The notes below the pieces were generated by a model. It worked only from the letters and a program-made list of their open reading frames with translations, did no database searches and was not told the origin of the DNA. This document shows positions 5,624 through 36,630 of a stretch of 36,630 nt of DNA, piece after piece. Origin of the DNA: an uncultured Bacteroidota bacterium (lineage in GTDB: Bacteria; Bacteroidota; Bacteroidia; Chitinophagales; Chitinophagaceae). Each line of letters begins with the position of its first letter. The stretch's first letter is position 1. The stretch lies in the NCBI GenBank assembly GCA_903903635.1, contig CAIUZK010000033.1:1-36630 (forward strand). Reading direction: 5' to 3'. A program made the position numbers and the translations under genes.

Positions 5624-5755
5624 AGCTAAAAAGTATTAACCCCTAACTCTGCAATAAATCACTTCGTCTATAACAAAAAGCGAGAAAAAACGCGGCAAAC
5701 TGTAGGTTGTTCAGCAATTCTGCATCAAATTATTAAGTTGTTGTCGAAAGAGTAA

Positions 5756-5977
5756 GTGACGATGATTAAATAAAGTACACCATCTTACTCGTTCTTTTTC
5801 CTTTCTACTTCGTTGTAGCAGTCTTTAAAATAGCGCACTATTCGCGGATTTTACGCCTCGTATAACATGCCTTCGCTAAAGCTATGGCAGTTAATAACAT
5901 GCCTTCGCTAAAGCTATGGCAGTTAATAACAGAAATATAACTTCGCAATATGGTGTACTTTATTTAATCAACGTCAC
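5756..5977. mobile_element. MITE-like inverted-repeat element, copy A (222 bp)
   Basis: The two ends form 28-bp terminal inverted repeats (5756-5783 and 5950-5977) with one mismatch. Both start GTGACG and contain AAATAAAG. The interior (about 5784-5860) is clearly homologous to the element at 33521-33677; shared blocks include CTTCGTTGTA, CACTATTCGC and GATTTTACGCCT. The flanking triplets are TAA (5753-5755) and TGA (5978-5980). These do not match each other, but both fit the TNA pattern of the 3-bp duplication seen at the other copy. The element is longer than copy B because of a 32-bp tandem duplication (5864-5927). It encodes no transposase, so it would have to be moved in trans. Confidence 0.75.
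5864..5927. repeat. two perfect tandem copies of a 32-bp unit
   Basis: The unit beginning AACATGCCTTCGCTAAAG occurs at 5864-5895 and again at 5896-5927 without mismatches. It contains an imperfect palindrome running from GCCTTCGC to GGC, related to the REP-like hairpins at 36541-36572 and 36597-36626. It sits inside element copy A and is absent from copy B. Confidence 0.9.
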
Positions 5978-6165
5978 TGAGGGGCATTAATACCAGTTTT
6001 CGTATCAACCACTTTCCAGCAAAGTATCTTCTATGCCAAAACCCTCGGGTTGCTTCCTTTGTCGCAATGATTGGTGTGATGTGGTACAAGCGTGCTATGG
6101 TCACTATGGCTGGATAGCAGTAATGGCTTGTGGATCCCGATTTTTATTATTGTGGTTATTGGTGT

Positions 6166-20150: not shown

Positions 20151-22997
20151 TTATTGCTTTATTAATATACTTCCTGTTATCGTATTTTTTTCATCAGCCA
20201 GTCCTGATGCATTCAGTTTCACCAGGTAGAAATAAGTGCCATCCGGCAGATGTCCTCCTCCGGAACTTTCGCCACTCCAGTCATTATTATAGTTCTGTTT
20301 AGAATATACCATATCTCCGAATTTATCGAAAACCTGTACCGTATTTTCCGGATAACTATGTATGCCTTCAATAACCCACACATCATTAATTCCATCTCCG
20401 TTTGGTGTGATTACATCGTGAATATGAATAGTGAAACAACTATCGGCGCCAACTTCAGCAACTATTTGTTTTTCACATAAATTAGAATCCGTAACAGTAA
20501 CCGTATAAGTATCGGGAGGCAGACCGATTATTTTAGTACCGGTAAAGGGCCCCGACCATACATATTTGAACGGTGGTATTCCCCCTGAAACAGTAAGACT
20601 GATGCTCCCGTTTTTTGTTCCGCATTTTTCATTGGTAATGGTCTCTGTAATATCTAGAGGACCAGGTTCTGTAATATTGAATGTCCGGGTACCGGTGCAA
20701 TTTGATACAATGTCTTTGACCTGAACAGAATAGGAGCCCGGAGCAAGATTGAATATCGTCTGATTAGTGCCACCGTTTGACCAGAGGTATTGATAGGATC
20801 CGCTACCGCCCAATATAGTAGCCTTTATCGAGCCATTAGCCTCCCCGTTGCATTTTACAGGCGTTGTGACATCGGTAATAACCAAAGTGCCGGCAGGATG
20901 GACAGTAATGTTGAAGGTCGTTCTGTTGATACAGCCAAAAGTGTTGGGCGCGGTGGTGTAAGTTATTACCGTGTTACCAGGCGTAAGCGCTAAAACATCG
21001 CCCGAAATACTATCGATAGTAGCTACAACCGGATTTCCGCTGCTCCATTTACCACCTGGTAAAACACCTGCCAGCGTTATTGAGGAGCCTTCGCATAAAT
21101 TGGGAATACCAGTGATATTGCCTGTTGGCGGAAGCGGATTCACATTGATTGTCTTTGTAGCGGCAACTGTGCCACATGAGGTGACAATAGTATAACTGAT
21201 TAAGGCAGATCCGACCGCGACGCCGGTTAAGACTCCTGTGGAAGGATTAATTGTAGCGTTAACAGAGGCGCTGCTCCAGGATCCACCTGTAGCCATGTCG
21301 GACAGTGTAATTGTAGAACCTAAGCAAACATTGGCAGGTCCGGTAATCGTGCCAGGGCTCGGCAAACCATTACCGATGGTGATAATTTTGATCGCGGTGT
21401 CGGCCCCACATAAATTTATAACAATATATCGTATGGTATCTGTGCCGGGTGTAACTCCAGTTACTACACCTGCAGGGCCGATTGTGGCATGTCCGTTAGT
21501 GCTGCTCCAGATGCCCGGCCCGTTGCCTGAAGTGTCGGATAATGTCATTGCAGAACCCAGGCATATGTGAGCAGGACCGGTGATAATGCCGGCATGAGGG
21601 AGCGGGTTTATGGTAACATATATTTTAATAGTGTCCCCTGCAATACCATCTGTAACTATGACAGTAAAAGAATCGATACCCCAATAACCAGGAGTTGGAG
21701 TATAGGTAAGTCCGGAGGGTGTTACAGTTCCTCCGGTGGAAGTTGTGCTACAGACTGTAACAGCAGTGCCGTGCAGGGCTGAAGATAGCAGGCTCCAGGT
21801 CTCGGTTTGACTTGAGTTGGGGTCGGTAATTTCGAGTACTGAATTGATAGATGTTGCCGTATCATTTTCGCAGACGGTTAATGACTGTGAGCTACCTCCT
21901 GTAAAAGAAGGTGGTGTATTGGAAATCACGGTTGTGATTTTCCGGATTCGCAGATTGTACATATCGCCTACATAAATATTACCGGCAGGATCGGCAAGGG
22001 AGACAATAACATTGTTTAGTCCGGCCAGGAGGGGAGGACCACCATCGCCACTATAAGATGCGGTTCCATTTCCCGCAATAGTGTTGATTGTATTGGCGGG
22101 ATTTATCATCCTGATACGGTTGTTTGTAGCATCGGTGATATAGCAATTACCAAAAACATCGAAGTTAATGCCAGCAGGACCATTGAGTTGCGCCGAGGTT
22201 GCAGGGCCGCCATCGCCACTGAATCCGGGAGTTCCAATACCTGCGAATGTAGATATGATACCGGCGGTATTTATTTTACGGACCACATTGTTATTATAAT
22301 CGGTAAAATATACGTTCCCGGATGCATCTGTAGTTACCAGGTCGGGCAGATTCATAGTGGCAAGCGTAGCAGGCCCACCATCGCCTGTATAGCCTGTAGC
22401 TCCGGTGCCAGCTATAGTGGTAATTATACCCGAGGTGTTTACTTTCCGGATATGCTCAGAACCCTGGTCAGGAATGTAAATATTGCCAGCAAGGTCAACG
22501 CCGATTCCATTCGGAGATGACAGGTGGGCTATTGTAGCAGGCCCGTCATCGCCGCTCCAACCCGGAGTGCCATTTCCGGCAAAGGTGGTAATAATGCCGG
22601 CGGCATTAACTTTTCTGACCCTGGATGAGTAGACCTCGGAAATATATACATCGGTACCAAAACAAACGATGCCTGTAGGGCCATTTATTCCTGCTGAAGT
22701 AGCGGGACCACCATCGCCACTGTATGTTCCGCCATTACCTGCAAATGTGGTGACGATGCCGGAAGGAGCAATTTTTCTGACTCTTTTATTATTGAAGTCT
22801 GAGAAATATATATTGCCGGCGGCATCTCTTGCAAGCCCCCATGGCTGTGTCATAACGGCCGCCATCGCCGGGCCGCCATCGCCAGAAAAACCTGAAACTC
22901 CATTTCCACAAATCGTATTAATTACCTGAGCGCAGGATCGGGGTGGTGAAAAAAAGAACAACAGGAAGAGTAAATAAACAAGTAAGGGGTTTTTCAT
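20151..22997 (-). CDS. NHL/Ig-like/SprB-repeat surface protein with type-B T9SS domain
   Basis: A large secreted protein of 948 residues. After a signal peptide ending in RSCAQ come about six NHL-type beta-propeller repeats (about 25-360), each marked by GDGGPA and a Gly-Asn-Ile-Tyr pattern. Then a cadherin-like segment and three bacterial Ig-like repeats (TGPAxxCLGSxxTLSD and similar) run to about residue 700. Two SprB repeats follow (about 705-850), and last a gliding-motility-type C-terminal domain (about 860-948) beginning DVITPNGDGINDVW. This domain is the type-B signal for T9SS export and surface attachment. I chose the ATG at 22997, since the frame's first codon is a TTG nine bases upstream. 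The PorP/SprF-like gene directly downstream supports a cargo/partner pair. Confidence 0.92.
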   Translation of the reverse strand: MKNPLLVYLLFLLFFFSPPRSCAQVINTICGNGVSGFSGDGGPAMAAVMTQPWGLARDAAGNIYFSDFNNKRVRKIAPSGIVTTFAGNGGTYSGDGGPATSAGINGPTGIVCFGTDVYISEVYSSRVRKVNAAGIITTFAGNGTPGWSGDDGPATIAHLSSPNGIGVDLAGNIYIPDQGSEHIRKVNTSGIITTIAGTGATGYTGDGGPATLATMNLPDLVTTDASGNVYFTDYNNNVVRKINTAGIISTFAGIGTPGFSGDGGPATSAQLNGPAGINFDVFGNCYITDATNNRIRMINPANTINTIAGNGTASYSGDGGPPLLAGLNNVIVSLADPAGNIYVGDMYNLRIRKITTVISNTPPSFTGGSSQSLTVCENDTATSINSVLEITDPNSSQTETWSLLSSALHGTAVTVCSTTSTGGTVTPSGLTYTPTPGYWGIDSFTVIVTDGIAGDTIKIYVTINPLPHAGIITGPAHICLGSAMTLSDTSGNGPGIWSSTNGHATIGPAGVVTGVTPGTDTIRYIVINLCGADTAIKIITIGNGLPSPGTITGPANVCLGSTITLSDMATGGSWSSASVNATINPSTGVLTGVAVGSALISYTIVTSCGTVAATKTINVNPLPPTGNITGIPNLCEGSSITLAGVLPGGKWSSGNPVVATIDSISGDVLALTPGNTVITYTTAPNTFGCINRTTFNITVHPAGTLVITDVTTPVKCNGEANGSIKATILGGSGSYQYLWSNGGTNQTIFNLAPGSYSVQVKDIVSNCTGTRTFNITEPGPLDITETITNEKCGTKNGSISLTVSGGIPPFKYVWSGPFTGTKIIGLPPDTYTVTVTDSNLCEKQIVAEVGADSCFTIHIHDVITPNGDGINDVWVIEGIHSYPENTVQVFDKFGDMVYSKQNYNNDWSGESSGGGHLPDGTYFYLVKLNASGLADEKNTITGSILIKQ

Positions 22998-23157
22998 AGG
23001 GAGCAATGTTTAAAGACATAGTGAATAATTCAATAAATATATATAAAATCCCGGAATTTTCAAATCGGAATCGAGATATTACAATATTAATTGAGTTGGA
23101 ATGTATTGCCGCAATTAGTCTTTAACATTGTTCCGATGCAGGATTGCAAATTTTCTT

Positions 23158-33210: not shown

Positions 33211-33925
33211 TTAGCCAGCATTATTCTCAGCTTTCCATTCGTACCAGGTAATTGGTTGCCCTCTTATCCATAGGAATGAGCCATCGTAGGGGAAGGTTTT
33301 ATCGAAAATGAAACCGGTTTTCTCCAGCACATTTCTTGATGCGGTATTGTTTATATCAGCCATGGCATACACCTCTTTGAGATTCATAGTTTCGACACAA
33401 TAGTTGAAAGCGGCCTTACCTGCTTCGGTGGCATATCCCTTGCCCCAAAAGCGACTGCACAAACGGTATCCATAGTCGTAAAAGGCGGAATGTCCATTTA
33501 CCGGGCCTTCTATGAATTTAGGGCATGTAAAAAAATAAAGGTTGCTTTTTATCTTGTTCTTTTCCATTTTTGCTTCGTTGTAAAAGTCTTTAAATAGCTC
33601 ACTATTCGCAGATTTTACGCCTTGCAAAAAAGAAAAATAACTGCGTCAAAAAGCAACCTTTATTTCCTTACAAGCCCTTAAGTCCGGTCCAGCCCACAAA
33701 TTCATTGGTCGATTTTTCGATAATGGCCCACCGCCCAATGCCAAAATCAATATACTGCTGCAGGATGTTTTCGATCATCTCCCTGGCTTGTCCTGTTTTC
33801 TCGATTGGCCTGTTGCCCAGGAATTTATGCACCAAAGGATCGGAATCAAGTAGAAACATACCGGCTTCATCTTCCAGTGTAAGCGGGCGAATTATCAATC
33901 TTTCGGTTTCTATTTTTACCTGCAT
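33211..33925 (-). pseudogene. GNAT acetyltransferase gene split by a 157-bp element
   Basis: The N-terminal part (33925-33678) encodes MQVKIETERLIIRPLTLEDE up to FVGWTGLK. The C-terminal part (33520-33211) continues with FIEGPVNGHSAFYDYGYRL, then RFWGKGYATEA, the acetyl-CoA-binding motif of RimJ/RimL-type N-acetyltransferases, and NTASRNVLEKTGF. Between them lies the inverted-repeat element 33521-33677. Removing it with one 3-bp duplicate restores an uninterrupted 184-codon gene reading GLKFIEG at the junction, a normal GNAT length. As it stands, the frame shifts and stops right after the insertion. The C-terminal half remains open from a TTG (33627) inside the element. It converges with the DUF3857 paralogue, with one base between stops. 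Confidence 0.92.
33521..33677. mobile_element. MITE-like inverted-repeat element, copy B (157 bp)
   Basis: The terminal inverted repeats are 30 bp with 27 identities (33521-33550 and 33648-33677). Both begin GGGC and include AAATAAAGGTTGCTTTTT. The flanks are a perfect 3-bp direct repeat TTA (33518-33520 and 33678-33680). The target is known: the acetyltransferase gene becomes whole when the element and one TTA are removed. The interior is homologous to the core of copy A (5756-5977). No transposase is encoded, so it must depend on an enzyme elsewhere. The 3-bp duplication with a T-N-A pattern is known from some IS5-family groups; that link is only a guess. Confidence 0.9.
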
Positions 33926-34531: not shown

Positions 34532-36337
34532 TTACCACCTGGTTAGCGGCAGGCAGTACTTTTTACCGGCAGTGGTAATGGTTATAAAGTAGATTCCGAC
34601 CGGTTCATTGAAACCGATTTCTTTTTTCTGATTGGTAAAGCCGGTTAACTTATACAATACCTGACCTATAGTATTGGAGATGCTTATATCCATCGGTTCA
34701 TCAAGACCGGATGATACCAGTACTGTGAAATTGTTTTTGGTTGGATTGGGGTATATAGCAGCATGTTCCGTGGTTTGTAGCGCATTATGGGTGGCCCCTT
34801 CAAAGCAGGAGTCGTTGACACGGAAAGAAGCTGTGTCGATACCACAGGAATCGGTTACGATATACAGAATGTCGCTATAGCCCAAATAGGGAGACCCTGT
34901 ACTTACGAGGCCGGTGCCTGATACCGTGGCTATCAATGGATTTGTACTCAGCCAGGTGCCGCCGGGTATATTGCTGGTAAACAGTAGGGAGAAAAATGGG
35001 CAGATAGTATGTTCGCCGGATATAACGCCGGCATAAGGCCCCACAATAACATTGCGCGAAACATGCAGGGTTGCACAACTATTGGTAACCGTATAAGAAA
35101 TGGGGGTAAGCCCTTTAGACAGGCTCGAAACCACACCCGATGAATTTATGGAAGCAACAGTAGTATCGAAAGAAGACCATATGCCGCCCAATGTAGTATC
35201 AGACAATGTTACGGTCATACCCGTGCAAAGGAATGTATCGCCGGTTATTGGCGCTATTACCGGCGCTATACAGGTATCTACTTTTCTCACCCTGGCGCCA
35301 TTCAATTCGGCTATATAAACAAAGTTGTTTTTGTCGGTAGTTACAAATTCGGGATCGTTGAGGTTGGCGAGGGTAGCCACTCCACCGTCACCAGCATCGC
35401 CTAAAATTCCATTACCTGCAAATGTGGTGATCCTACCCGAAGTATCTACTTTGCGGATAACATGGTTTCGGTAATCGGCAATGTATATATTGCCATGGCT
35501 ATCCGTTTTTATATCGTTTGGGTAGGAGAGTGCAGCATTGGTGGCTGGCCCGCCATCGCCGGAGTAGCCATATGTGCCATTGCCTGCGATTGTGGTAATA
35601 ATACCTGCTGCATCCACCTTCCTTACCCGATTATTTAATTGGTCGGCTATGTAAAAGTTGCCCTGGTTATCTGTGGCTACACCATTTGCCCACTGAATTT
35701 GTGCATCGGTGGCAGGGCCGCCATCTCCGGCGAAACCATACATGCCATTGCCTGCAACCCTGGTGATTATGCCACTGGCGTCTATTTTCCGTATCACGCT
35801 ATTGCTGGCATCAGCTATATACAAATTCCCCGCAGTGTCTGCCGCCAACCCCTGGGGGTAATTCAGCAAAGCATGCACTGCCAGTCCGCCATCACCACTA
35901 TACCCACCGCCTATGATGGATGCATCGCCTGCAATGGTGCTTATAATGCCTGAAGGGGTTACTTTGCGGATCACACTGTTTTCTGCATCACTCATGTATA
36001 GATTTCCCAACCGGTCTATAGCCAGCCCTGTGGGGATACCAATATTGGCGGCTGTTGCCTGACCACCATCGCCAGTGCTGCCACCGGTACCTGTACCGAT
36101 AGATGTGGTGATTGTACCTGAGCCGTCTATTTTCCTGACCTTGCGGCAGCTTAAGCAACTGATGATAACATTTCCGGTGAAATCAACCACAATACCATTC
36201 AACTGCCCAACATGCGCTGCAGTGGCAGGTCCGCCATCGCCCGAACAACTCCAGGTGCCATTGCCGGTTATGGTGGTAATAATCTGAGCGTGGATGCCGA
36301 AGGGTAGAAGAATGAGTAGAAAGATTAATTTTTTCAT
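34532..36337 (-). CDS. NHL-repeat/Ig-like secreted protein with type-A T9SS domain
   Basis: A 601-residue secreted protein. It has a signal peptide (1-17, ending GIHAQ), then about six NHL beta-propeller repeats (about 20-350) with the recurring GDGGPAT and Gly-Asn-xx-Ile-Ala-Asp patterns. Two bacterial Ig-like segments follow (about 355-510; ITGDTFLCTGMTVTLSD). The C-terminal domain (about 527-601) begins IYPNPTKNNFTV and contains IGQVLYKLTG and GIYFITITT, the type-A T9SS sorting signal. It is a close relative of the protein at 20151-22997 but ends in a different sorting domain. No PorP/SprF gene adjoins it, as expected for type A. Confidence 0.92.
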   Translation of the reverse strand: MKKLIFLLILLPFGIHAQIITTITGNGTWSCSGDGGPATAAHVGQLNGIVVDFTGNVIISCLSCRKVRKIDGSGTITTSIGTGTGGSTGDGGQATAANIGIPTGLAIDRLGNLYMSDAENSVIRKVTPSGIISTIAGDASIIGGGYSGDGGLAVHALLNYPQGLAADTAGNLYIADASNSVIRKIDASGIITRVAGNGMYGFAGDGGPATDAQIQWANGVATDNQGNFYIADQLNNRVRKVDAAGIITTIAGNGTYGYSGDGGPATNAALSYPNDIKTDSHGNIYIADYRNHVIRKVDTSGRITTFAGNGILGDAGDGGVATLANLNDPEFVTTDKNNFVYIAELNGARVRKVDTCIAPVIAPITGDTFLCTGMTVTLSDTTLGGIWSSFDTTVASINSSGVVSSLSKGLTPISYTVTNSCATLHVSRNVIVGPYAGVISGEHTICPFFSLLFTSNIPGGTWLSTNPLIATVSGTGLVSTGSPYLGYSDILYIVTDSCGIDTASFRVNDSCFEGATHNALQTTEHAAIYPNPTKNNFTVLVSSGLDEPMDISISNTIGQVLYKLTGFTNQKKEIGFNEPVGIYFITITTAGKKYCLPLTRW

Positions 36338-36404
36338 AGGGTATTAATTTGAAGTGAAATTAGTGATTTTTTATATTACAGCAAAAATTATGCCAAGTTT
36401 CAGA

Positions 36405-36540
36405 GGTTGAAAGGTTAAATGGGTTAAATGGGTTAAAAGGTTAAATGGGTTAAAAGGTTAAAAGGTTAAAAGGTTAAAAGGTTAAAAGGTTAAAAGGTTA
36501 AAAGGTTAAATGGTTAAAAGGTTAAATGGGTTAAAAGGTT
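36405..36540. repeat. 8-bp tandem repeat array (GGTTAAAA)
   Basis: About 16.5 head-to-tail units of GGTTAAAA follow each other. Variants are GGTTAAAT, a nine-base form with an extra G (GGTTAAATG), and a first unit GGTTGAAA. The array lies about 70 bases upstream of the type-A NHL gene start and ends directly at the first REP-like palindrome. Confidence 0.93.
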
Positions 36541-36630
36541 CCCGCCGTCGCTGTAGCTTTGGCGGGCGAGGGATAAGTTGATAGGTTGATAGGTTTCCGC
36601 CTTCGCTATGGCTACGGCGGGCGAGGGATA
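36541..36630. repeat. two REP-like GC-rich palindromes
   Basis: The two hairpins run from CCCGCCGTCGCTG to GGCGGG (36541-36566) and from CCGCCTTCGC to GGCGGG (36597-36621). Each is followed by the same CGAGGGATA tail. Between them are two units of GATAGGTT, a variant of the adjoining 8-bp array. The window ends inside this region, so more copies may follow. Confidence 0.85.

Follow-up and report, generated by a model that had tools for sequence, protein, structure and literature searches.

A genus-wide family of ISAzo13-type miniature inverted-repeat elements in freshwater Bacteroidota, probably maintained as one long hairpin

Results

The window analyzed here, the whole 36,630-nucleotide stretch that forms contig C33 of the source draft (5.27 Mb, 275 contigs), contains two elements, copies A and B, which differ in end type but belong to a single, genus-wide family of miniature inverted-repeat elements. 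Because pairing runs through the whole length of the element, core pairs and conserved mismatches included, we conclude that the unit is maintained as one long hairpin. The ends of copies A (type I) and B (type III) match the termini of ISAzo13-family transposons, a different lineage in each case. The explanation that we consider likely is that this is a MITE family with ISAzo13 ends which follow different lineages, with a shared core that is kept, and with copies retained or amplified only if they fold as one hairpin.

Copies A and B

The sequence-only reading that preceded this study gave coordinates that cover copy A (5756-5977) but omit copy B (33521-33677). The features of both copies in the window are the following:

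5753-5755, no strand: TAA left of copy A; the right side, 5978-5980, is TGA, an imperfect target duplication
5756-5977, plus strand: copy A, complete element, 222 bp, a 157-bp type with two additional 32-bp units and minor differences
5756-5783, plus strand: left terminal arm of copy A, type I, 26/28 versus the ISAzo13 end in locus L424
5862-5925, plus strand: two tandem 32-bp palindromic units (5862-5893 and 5894-5925) in the right half of the copy A core
5950-5977, minus strand: right terminal arm of copy A, type I, 27/28 versus the ISAzo13 end in L424
33214-33513, minus strand: C-terminal part of a GNAT acetyltransferase gene split by copy B (Acetyltransf_3 profile positions 81-137)
33518-33520, no strand: TTA flanking copy B on the left, first repeat of its 3-bp target duplication
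33521-33677, plus strand: copy B, complete 157-bp element
33521-33550, plus strand: left terminal arm of copy B, type III, 22/28 versus the ISAzo13 remnant end in locus L426
33648-33677, minus strand: right terminal arm of copy B, type III, 24/28 versus the ISAzo13 remnant end in L426
33678-33680, no strand: TTA flanking copy B on the right, second repeat of that duplication
33683-33925, minus strand: N-terminal part of the GNAT gene split by copy B (Acetyltransf_3 profile positions 1-70)

Copy A is longer than copy B because of its two tandem 32-bp units, of which other copies of the family contain between zero and four, as judged by eye. The earlier proposal that the terminal stems differ between the copies yet pair within each of them was borne out, as A and B have only 14 of 28 arm positions in common but their arms are complementary at 27/28 within copy A and at 27/30 within copy B; the cores agree at 82 of 101 aligned bases. 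Likewise, the block AAATAAAG, which had been placed 12 bases from each end, starts after exactly 12 bases in all four arms. The folding of each copy as RNA, which had been put forward as a check, showed both to be stable relative to shuffled sequences, with z-scores of -7.8 (A) and -9.4 (B) for the minus strand and -7.3 (A) and -7.9 (B) for the plus strand, and with none of 200 shuffles as stable in any of the four tests (two copies, two strands). Among Rfam families at the gathering score only a tRNA was found in the window, and none matched the element.

Other repeats were noted in the window. At positions 36404-36630 an 8-bp unit (AGGTTAAA) is repeated 16.6 times in tandem, with two GC-rich palindromic repeat copies next to it at the contig end, and the reading frames at 34532-36337 and 20151-23006 have repeats spaced 168 bases apart, the former encoding an NHL/beta-propeller-like protein with a secretion tail domain.

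Distribution and composition of the family

The family consists of a 157-bp non-autonomous mobile element that was detected in 27 of 35 genomes of the genus, the source genome included, and in none of 25 genomes from outside the genus (60 genomes searched, E 0.001). One exact core pattern was found in 50 stretches, all of them titled Bacteroidetes, Sphingobacteriales or Flavipsychrobacter, and had no match in viral contigs. A total of 146 complete copies from 26 genomes, all of one genus, were analyzed; since a type II query was used to find relatives and scoring was limited to 14 candidates per genome, types I and III are under-sampled in the relatives and the copy counts are lower bounds. 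These copies were obtained from 151 delimited copies by removal of four that were badly delimited and one in inverted orientation. Five more source-genome copies lacking flanking sequence were left out, as was one of the overlapping loci L302 and L218, which hold the same copy. For column and pair tests a set of 111 copies was used (154-160 bp, near duplicates removed, copy B added), fold energies were calculated for the 110 of these that remain without copy B, and a further set of 62 was picked from the 111. Within the source genome, arm patterns with at most three mismatches gave 37 matches for type I, 108 for type II and 16 for type III, which are counts of arms rather than copies, many contigs ending inside an element; the reversed patterns gave no match at the same threshold.

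Among 125 arm pairs with a clear core (loci L198-L422), 83 span exactly 157 bp, and longer copies result from small palindromic insertions. By eye, different small palindromes occupy almost the same core position in different copies (for example L251, L239, L250 and many from the source genome). Exact 3-bp direct repeats flank 100 of the 146 copies versus 44 expected from flank composition, although left-right match and duplication were both used as criteria in placing copy boundaries and so both are somewhat inflated. The commonest repeats are TAA (52) and TTA (42), that is, TWA, and rarer exact duplications include TGA, TTT and TTC. The family thus has the attributes of a bacterial MITE, being short and non-coding, with terminal inverted repeats, a target duplication and, for types I and III, ends shared with a transposon. 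A coding origin of the core was considered based on a minus-strand open frame seen by eye in some copies and was set aside, as there are stops in other copies.

Hybrid copies are present in mid-contig, for instance at C181:10478-10666, which has a left arm of type III, a right arm of type II and TAA on both sides, a further hybrid is C229:18722, and some copies have different arms with a nearly identical core. Together these indicate that ends can be exchanged. Lone arms were also observed in the source genome (C83:6753, C165:13411, C247:49487, C40:43541, C254:1824 and C195:12014), and the one on C83 runs directly into an ATG reading frame.

Some copies are very short. Two 44-bp copies are located on C253 (23936-23979 and 27291-27334), of which one is flanked by TAA on each side and the other lacks an exact duplication. 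The flanks of the two have little or no likeness, aligning at scores of 11 to 17 where shuffles had a mean of 11 and a maximum of 16. Copies of 66-68 bp are present at C211:24976-25043 and at C256:73741-73768 and adjoining sequence, the C256 copy having TGT on both sides. Each junction of these 44-bp and 66-68-bp copies was found at two sites. As shortened copies that lack the core exist, the core is probably not required for insertion, and its conserved fold may instead serve amplification, stability or a role in the cell.

ISAzo13 ends and the search for a partner

ISAzo13 transposases (PF07592) were identified in three of the 35 genus genomes, namely G015, G020 and the source genome, the last of which has two short pieces only. 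At all four ISAzo13 loci an arm-like end with a TWA flank is located ~30 bases beyond the C-terminal end of the coding region, although the resemblance to an arm is weak in L425 (score 4.6). The G020 end is identical at 28/28 positions to both arms of a G020 element and matches the arms of copy A at 26 and 27 of 28, and the source-genome end on C96 matches both arms of two type III copies at 24/28 and those of copy B at 22 and 24 of 28. Crosswise comparisons with the other arm type gave only 14-15. The best 40 blastn matches between elements and the four loci all fell inside the terminal repeats or only a few bases away from them, and none was in the core. ISAzo13 elements are reported to make 3-bp target duplications (PMC10045372).

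In view of the TWA duplications and the ISAzo13-family ends, from a different lineage in A and in B, the contrast drawn earlier with a "plain transposase-end MITE" is not supported; hairpin-dependent mobility or replication, the other half of that inference, is a hypothesis. The case that had been named as fatal to it, two fixed end types each belonging to a separate IS family, is approached: the ends of types I and III match separate ISAzo13 lineages, but the family has many end types rather than two, and its core shows covariation too.

The only complete ISAzo13 copy, L423 in G015, is about 1.3 kb long with TTA on both sides, and its transposase region scored 318 bits against the NCBIfam ISAzo13 equivalog (cut-off 200). 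Its ends match any element at 21/28 at best. Contig ends truncate L424 and L425, a stop interrupts L426, and thus none of the four loci is a complete copy with A or B ends. In L423 (G015:C39, 1149-2448) the transposase is split between two frames that adjoin close to a run of A, an arrangement resembling frameshifting or slippage by eye. For the commonest end type, type II, no ISAzo13 partner was found in the 35 genus genomes. With ISAzo13 in three of 35 genomes and elements in 27, there are 24 element-bearing genomes without a visible ISAzo13 partner.

Five other transposase families gave no partner in the sequence covered. In the loci fetched (L307-L372), no fitting ends were found for PF13586 (3/35 genomes), PF13359 (3/35, one above the cut-off), PF01609 (19/35; 30 of the 46 matches listed) or PF01797 (33/35; 30 loci); PF00665 had no match in the source genome, the sole genome searched for it. 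An IS with a DDE_Tnp_1 (PF01609) gene at C16:380-1496 of the source genome is apparently inserted inside an element copy and is not a partner. A longer element with both arms was not detected in 1.17 Mb (overlapping loci counted twice). This sequence contained 15 convergent arm pairs 420-5000 bases apart, several representing the same place, and both arms came from short elements in 12 of them and one arm in the other three.

Co-evolution of the arms

Within the 146 copies the left and right arms match at 20.74 of 24 positions, a value that is somewhat inflated by the boundary criteria noted above, versus 17.07 when right arms were permuted among copies (sd 0.13, maximum 17.49 in 2000 permutations). 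Permutation within genomes gave 18.32 versus 20.76 observed, and permutation within clusters of core identity >=0.95 gave 19.71 versus 20.86, the observed value being reached in 0 of 2000 permutations in both cases. For the nine genomes with at least six copies, taken singly, between 0 and 41 of the 2000 permutations reached the observed value. Under independent drift a left arm should match the right arm of its own copy no better than that of another copy, and the difference seen therefore indicates that the arms are not drifting independently. They also change faster than the core, since the left arms of different copies share only ~17.6 of 24 positions at a core identity of 0.80-0.90. Among arm positions changed in 70 independent sister pairs, 126 had changed in both arms together, 50 in both arms otherwise and 218 in one arm only; the 176 same-position coincidences compare with 48 expected if changes were even and with 63 to 97 when the arms were slid by 1-3 positions. 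The two ends of the 1.3-kb L423 also match each other by eye, and so co-evolution of the arms alone needs no hairpin.

Covariation through the core

In the 111 copies covariation was concentrated on the single register i+j=158, with a mean Watson-Crick excess of 0.075 versus a mean of -0.0002 for the other 244 registers (sd 0.0036, maximum 0.0087). For core columns alone, registers 157-159 had values of 0.018-0.023 versus a null of 0.0006 (128 registers, sd 0.0045, maximum 0.0088). The two strongest covarying pairs are both in the core: 52/105, for which GC, TA and AT are all common, and 77/82; core pairs 53/104 and 61/97 covary too. When 16 pairs were permuted over all copies, 14 were never equalled in 2000 permutations, and the remaining two, 57/101 and 76/83, had no real excess. 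Seven core pairs lying outside the arms, selected beforehand for covarying, were 92% paired, versus 56% when permuted and 76% when permuted within genomes.

One structure of 57 pairs over 62 copies, drawn, like the other tested structures, from the same alignments, was 91.7% paired versus 81.9% after shuffling, with two-sided change at 33 versus 19.8 pairs and 320 versus 87.6 cells, and only 43-52% paired when slid by 1-3 columns. Each of five measures was reached in 0 of 500 shuffles, although related sequences can exceed such shuffles, a matter addressed in part by the within-genome and within-core-cluster permutations. Base-pair covariation beyond shuffles, with relatedness handled in part by those permutations, is what is expected of a structured RNA or ssDNA. 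From the 111-copy alignment RNAalifold drew only part of the outer stem, and a run with DNA parameters gave no pairs; the register test was used in its place. As the sequence-only reading had anticipated, pairing is kept while the sequence changes, in the arms of 146 copies and in the columns of 111 and 62 copies, and the covariation signal that it had proposed to seek in a larger alignment is present and continues through the core beyond the 28-bp ends.

This result bears on the possibility that the family is a plain ISAzo13 MITE, in which the arms match because one transposase needs both ends, the fold is idle and the core hitch-hikes. Such an account fits the 3-bp duplications, the ISAzo13 ends that match types I and III, the mutual match of the ends of the full IS L423, and the core-less copies of 44 and 66-68 bp at several sites. 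It predicts, however, that the ends and not the core should be most conserved, and it does not explain covariation beyond the 28-bp ends, with the strongest pairs in the core (52/105 and 77/82); the core-pair permutation test already disfavors it. In addition, L244 and L246 come from one genome and have cores that are 99% identical, yet in each arm they differ from one another at positions 5, 19, 20 and 22. We therefore consider a plain MITE improbable.

Several mismatches are themselves conserved, by weight: 7/151 (A.A, 0.72), 34/124 (T.C, 0.89), 56/102 (C.T, 0.86) and 58/100 (T.C, 0.85). Lying between paired stretches, they count against the blind copying of either arm onto its partner and in favor of a selected fold. 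The alternatives of arm copying and selected pairing had been left side by side in the earlier reading, and these mismatches, such as columns 7/151, favor the second. Arm-to-arm copying without selection, by quasi-palindrome correction at the fork or by mismatch repair in the hairpin, would erase these mismatches, which are genus-wide, and the lopsidedness of departures by strand also counts against it. On the other hand, left-type alleles are found in right arms and the reverse (C11:20274, C48:30496 and C150:13844), and the G015 copies L243 and L245 are without both usual mismatches, which were removed in opposite directions. As a full explanation copying thus seems unlikely, but it may supply part of the variation.

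Strand preference and gene context

One-sided transitions that leave a wobble are more frequent for the minus strand than the plus strand, both in the arms (175 versus 33 of 2800 cells) and in core pairs (56 versus 25 of 2764), and the excess is visible in left and right arms separately. C>T in the left half of the core has the opposite strand direction, and in mismatch columns T>C also exceeds A>G, so the test is partly open to mutation bias. The minus-strand RNA fold was the more stable in 108 of 110 copies (mean -58.2 versus -42.2), although mononucleotide shuffles of 60 copies showed the same direction with a smaller gap (-25.9 versus -20.7; 167/180).

That wobble-type departures favor one strand, and that the RNA of that strand is the more stable in 108/110 copies, is in keeping with a spreading cellular non-coding RNA or mRNA 3'-end element under host selection via an RNA hairpin, and known MITE transcripts are long stem-loops (PMC2229807). 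Against this, the same-direction difference in mononucleotide shuffles, the lack of any Rfam match in the window but a tRNA, and the lack of a consistent orientation to neighboring genes have to be weighed. For 63 copies with enough flank, the four arrangements of neighboring genes were found 24, 17, 15 and 7 times, no clear bias, which argues against a role in read-through transcripts. Of 64 copies, two, copy B among them, lie within a reading frame that would be open once the flanks are joined into an empty site. We give little credence to an RNA element of this kind.

Y1 transposases

Y1 (HUH) transposases are present in 33 of the 35 genus genomes, and many of those fetched (L310-L339) are flanked by palindromes of their own, in a REP/RAYT-like manner. 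One Y1 gene from outside the fetched set, G003:C41:7641-7985, lies ~350 bases from an element (G003:C41:7133-7294) and a second, G033:C65:29528, is ~1.9 kb from one. IS200/IS605 and RAYT/REP (Y1) elements make no target duplication and adjoin a Y1 gene. Despite the abundance of these genes and the palindromic, strand-specific folds of the family, movement of a REP/RAYT-type element on single-stranded DNA by a Y1 transposase is very improbable, because the elements have exact 3-bp target duplications, the rarer TGA, TTT and TTC included, and the 30 Y1 loci fetched contain no element except for one weak 42-base match in L339 (E 5.6e-4), their flanking palindromes looking different.

Proposed mechanism

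Under the explanation that we favor, an ISAzo13-end MITE family whose copies persist only as hairpins, ISAzo13-family transposases would move the elements in trans, cutting at the arms and inserting at TWA. The ends would follow whichever ISAzo13 lineage is present or be swapped by recombination between copies, as the hybrid copies suggest, the shared core being kept meanwhile. Only copies that still fold into one long hairpin would be kept or amplified, and the folding strand probably reads from the right arm (the minus strand of the window for both copies), as ssDNA or RNA.

We also speculate, with considerable doubt, that the element is a hairpin chassis with exchangeable ends. The mobility machinery would then itself read the folded strand, be it ssDNA or RNA, so that selection would preserve the entire fold and leave the ends free to follow any ISAzo13 lineage. 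If so, the 44-bp copies would move as folded hairpins, since they seem too short for two bound ends on double-stranded DNA.

Should the fold be needed for mobility, ISAzo13-family transposition would use a folded strand; should it be needed in the cell, a freshwater Bacteroidota genus would carry a numerous structured element without a described function.

Comparison with known systems

The ISAzo13 family is Zator-like in eukaryotes. Among the matches listed from the open-licence PMC literature there was no description of an ISAzo13 MITE, of this family or of a bacterial MITE with covariation. The main text of a MITE review (PMC10969869) uses neither "covariation" nor "hairpin", and "compensatory" is absent from PMC2229807. 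The element resembles ISAzo13 insertion sequences, whose terminal repeats match at up to 28/28 and which make a 3-bp target duplication (PMC10045372), but it has no transposase and is 157 bp long versus about 1.3 kb for L423. With ERIC, Correia (NEMIS) and RUP elements, as portrayed in PMC2229807 and PMC10969869, it shares a length of ~100-200 bp, a high copy number and a full-length stem-loop; it is unlike them in its 3-bp TWA duplication, in ends that vary around a kept core and in the demonstration of full-length covariation. Rickettsia palindromic elements are similarly long stem-loops of 105-146 bp spread across the genome (PMC2229807), but the elements described here are mostly outside genes (2/64 in frame), though copy B splits one, and have clear target duplications and a candidate IS partner. 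REPINs and RAYT-linked REPs are also high-copy hairpins, with Y1 transposases in the same genomes, and differ from this family in that the latter has 3-bp direct duplications and is not linked to the 30 Y1 loci fetched.

Bacterial MITEs are usually portrayed as IS leftovers of which the ends matter and the middle does not. In this family the ends vary between IS lineages but the middle and the pairing persist, and we class the element as a MITE of ISAzo13 type with a new property, the covariation of the whole unit.
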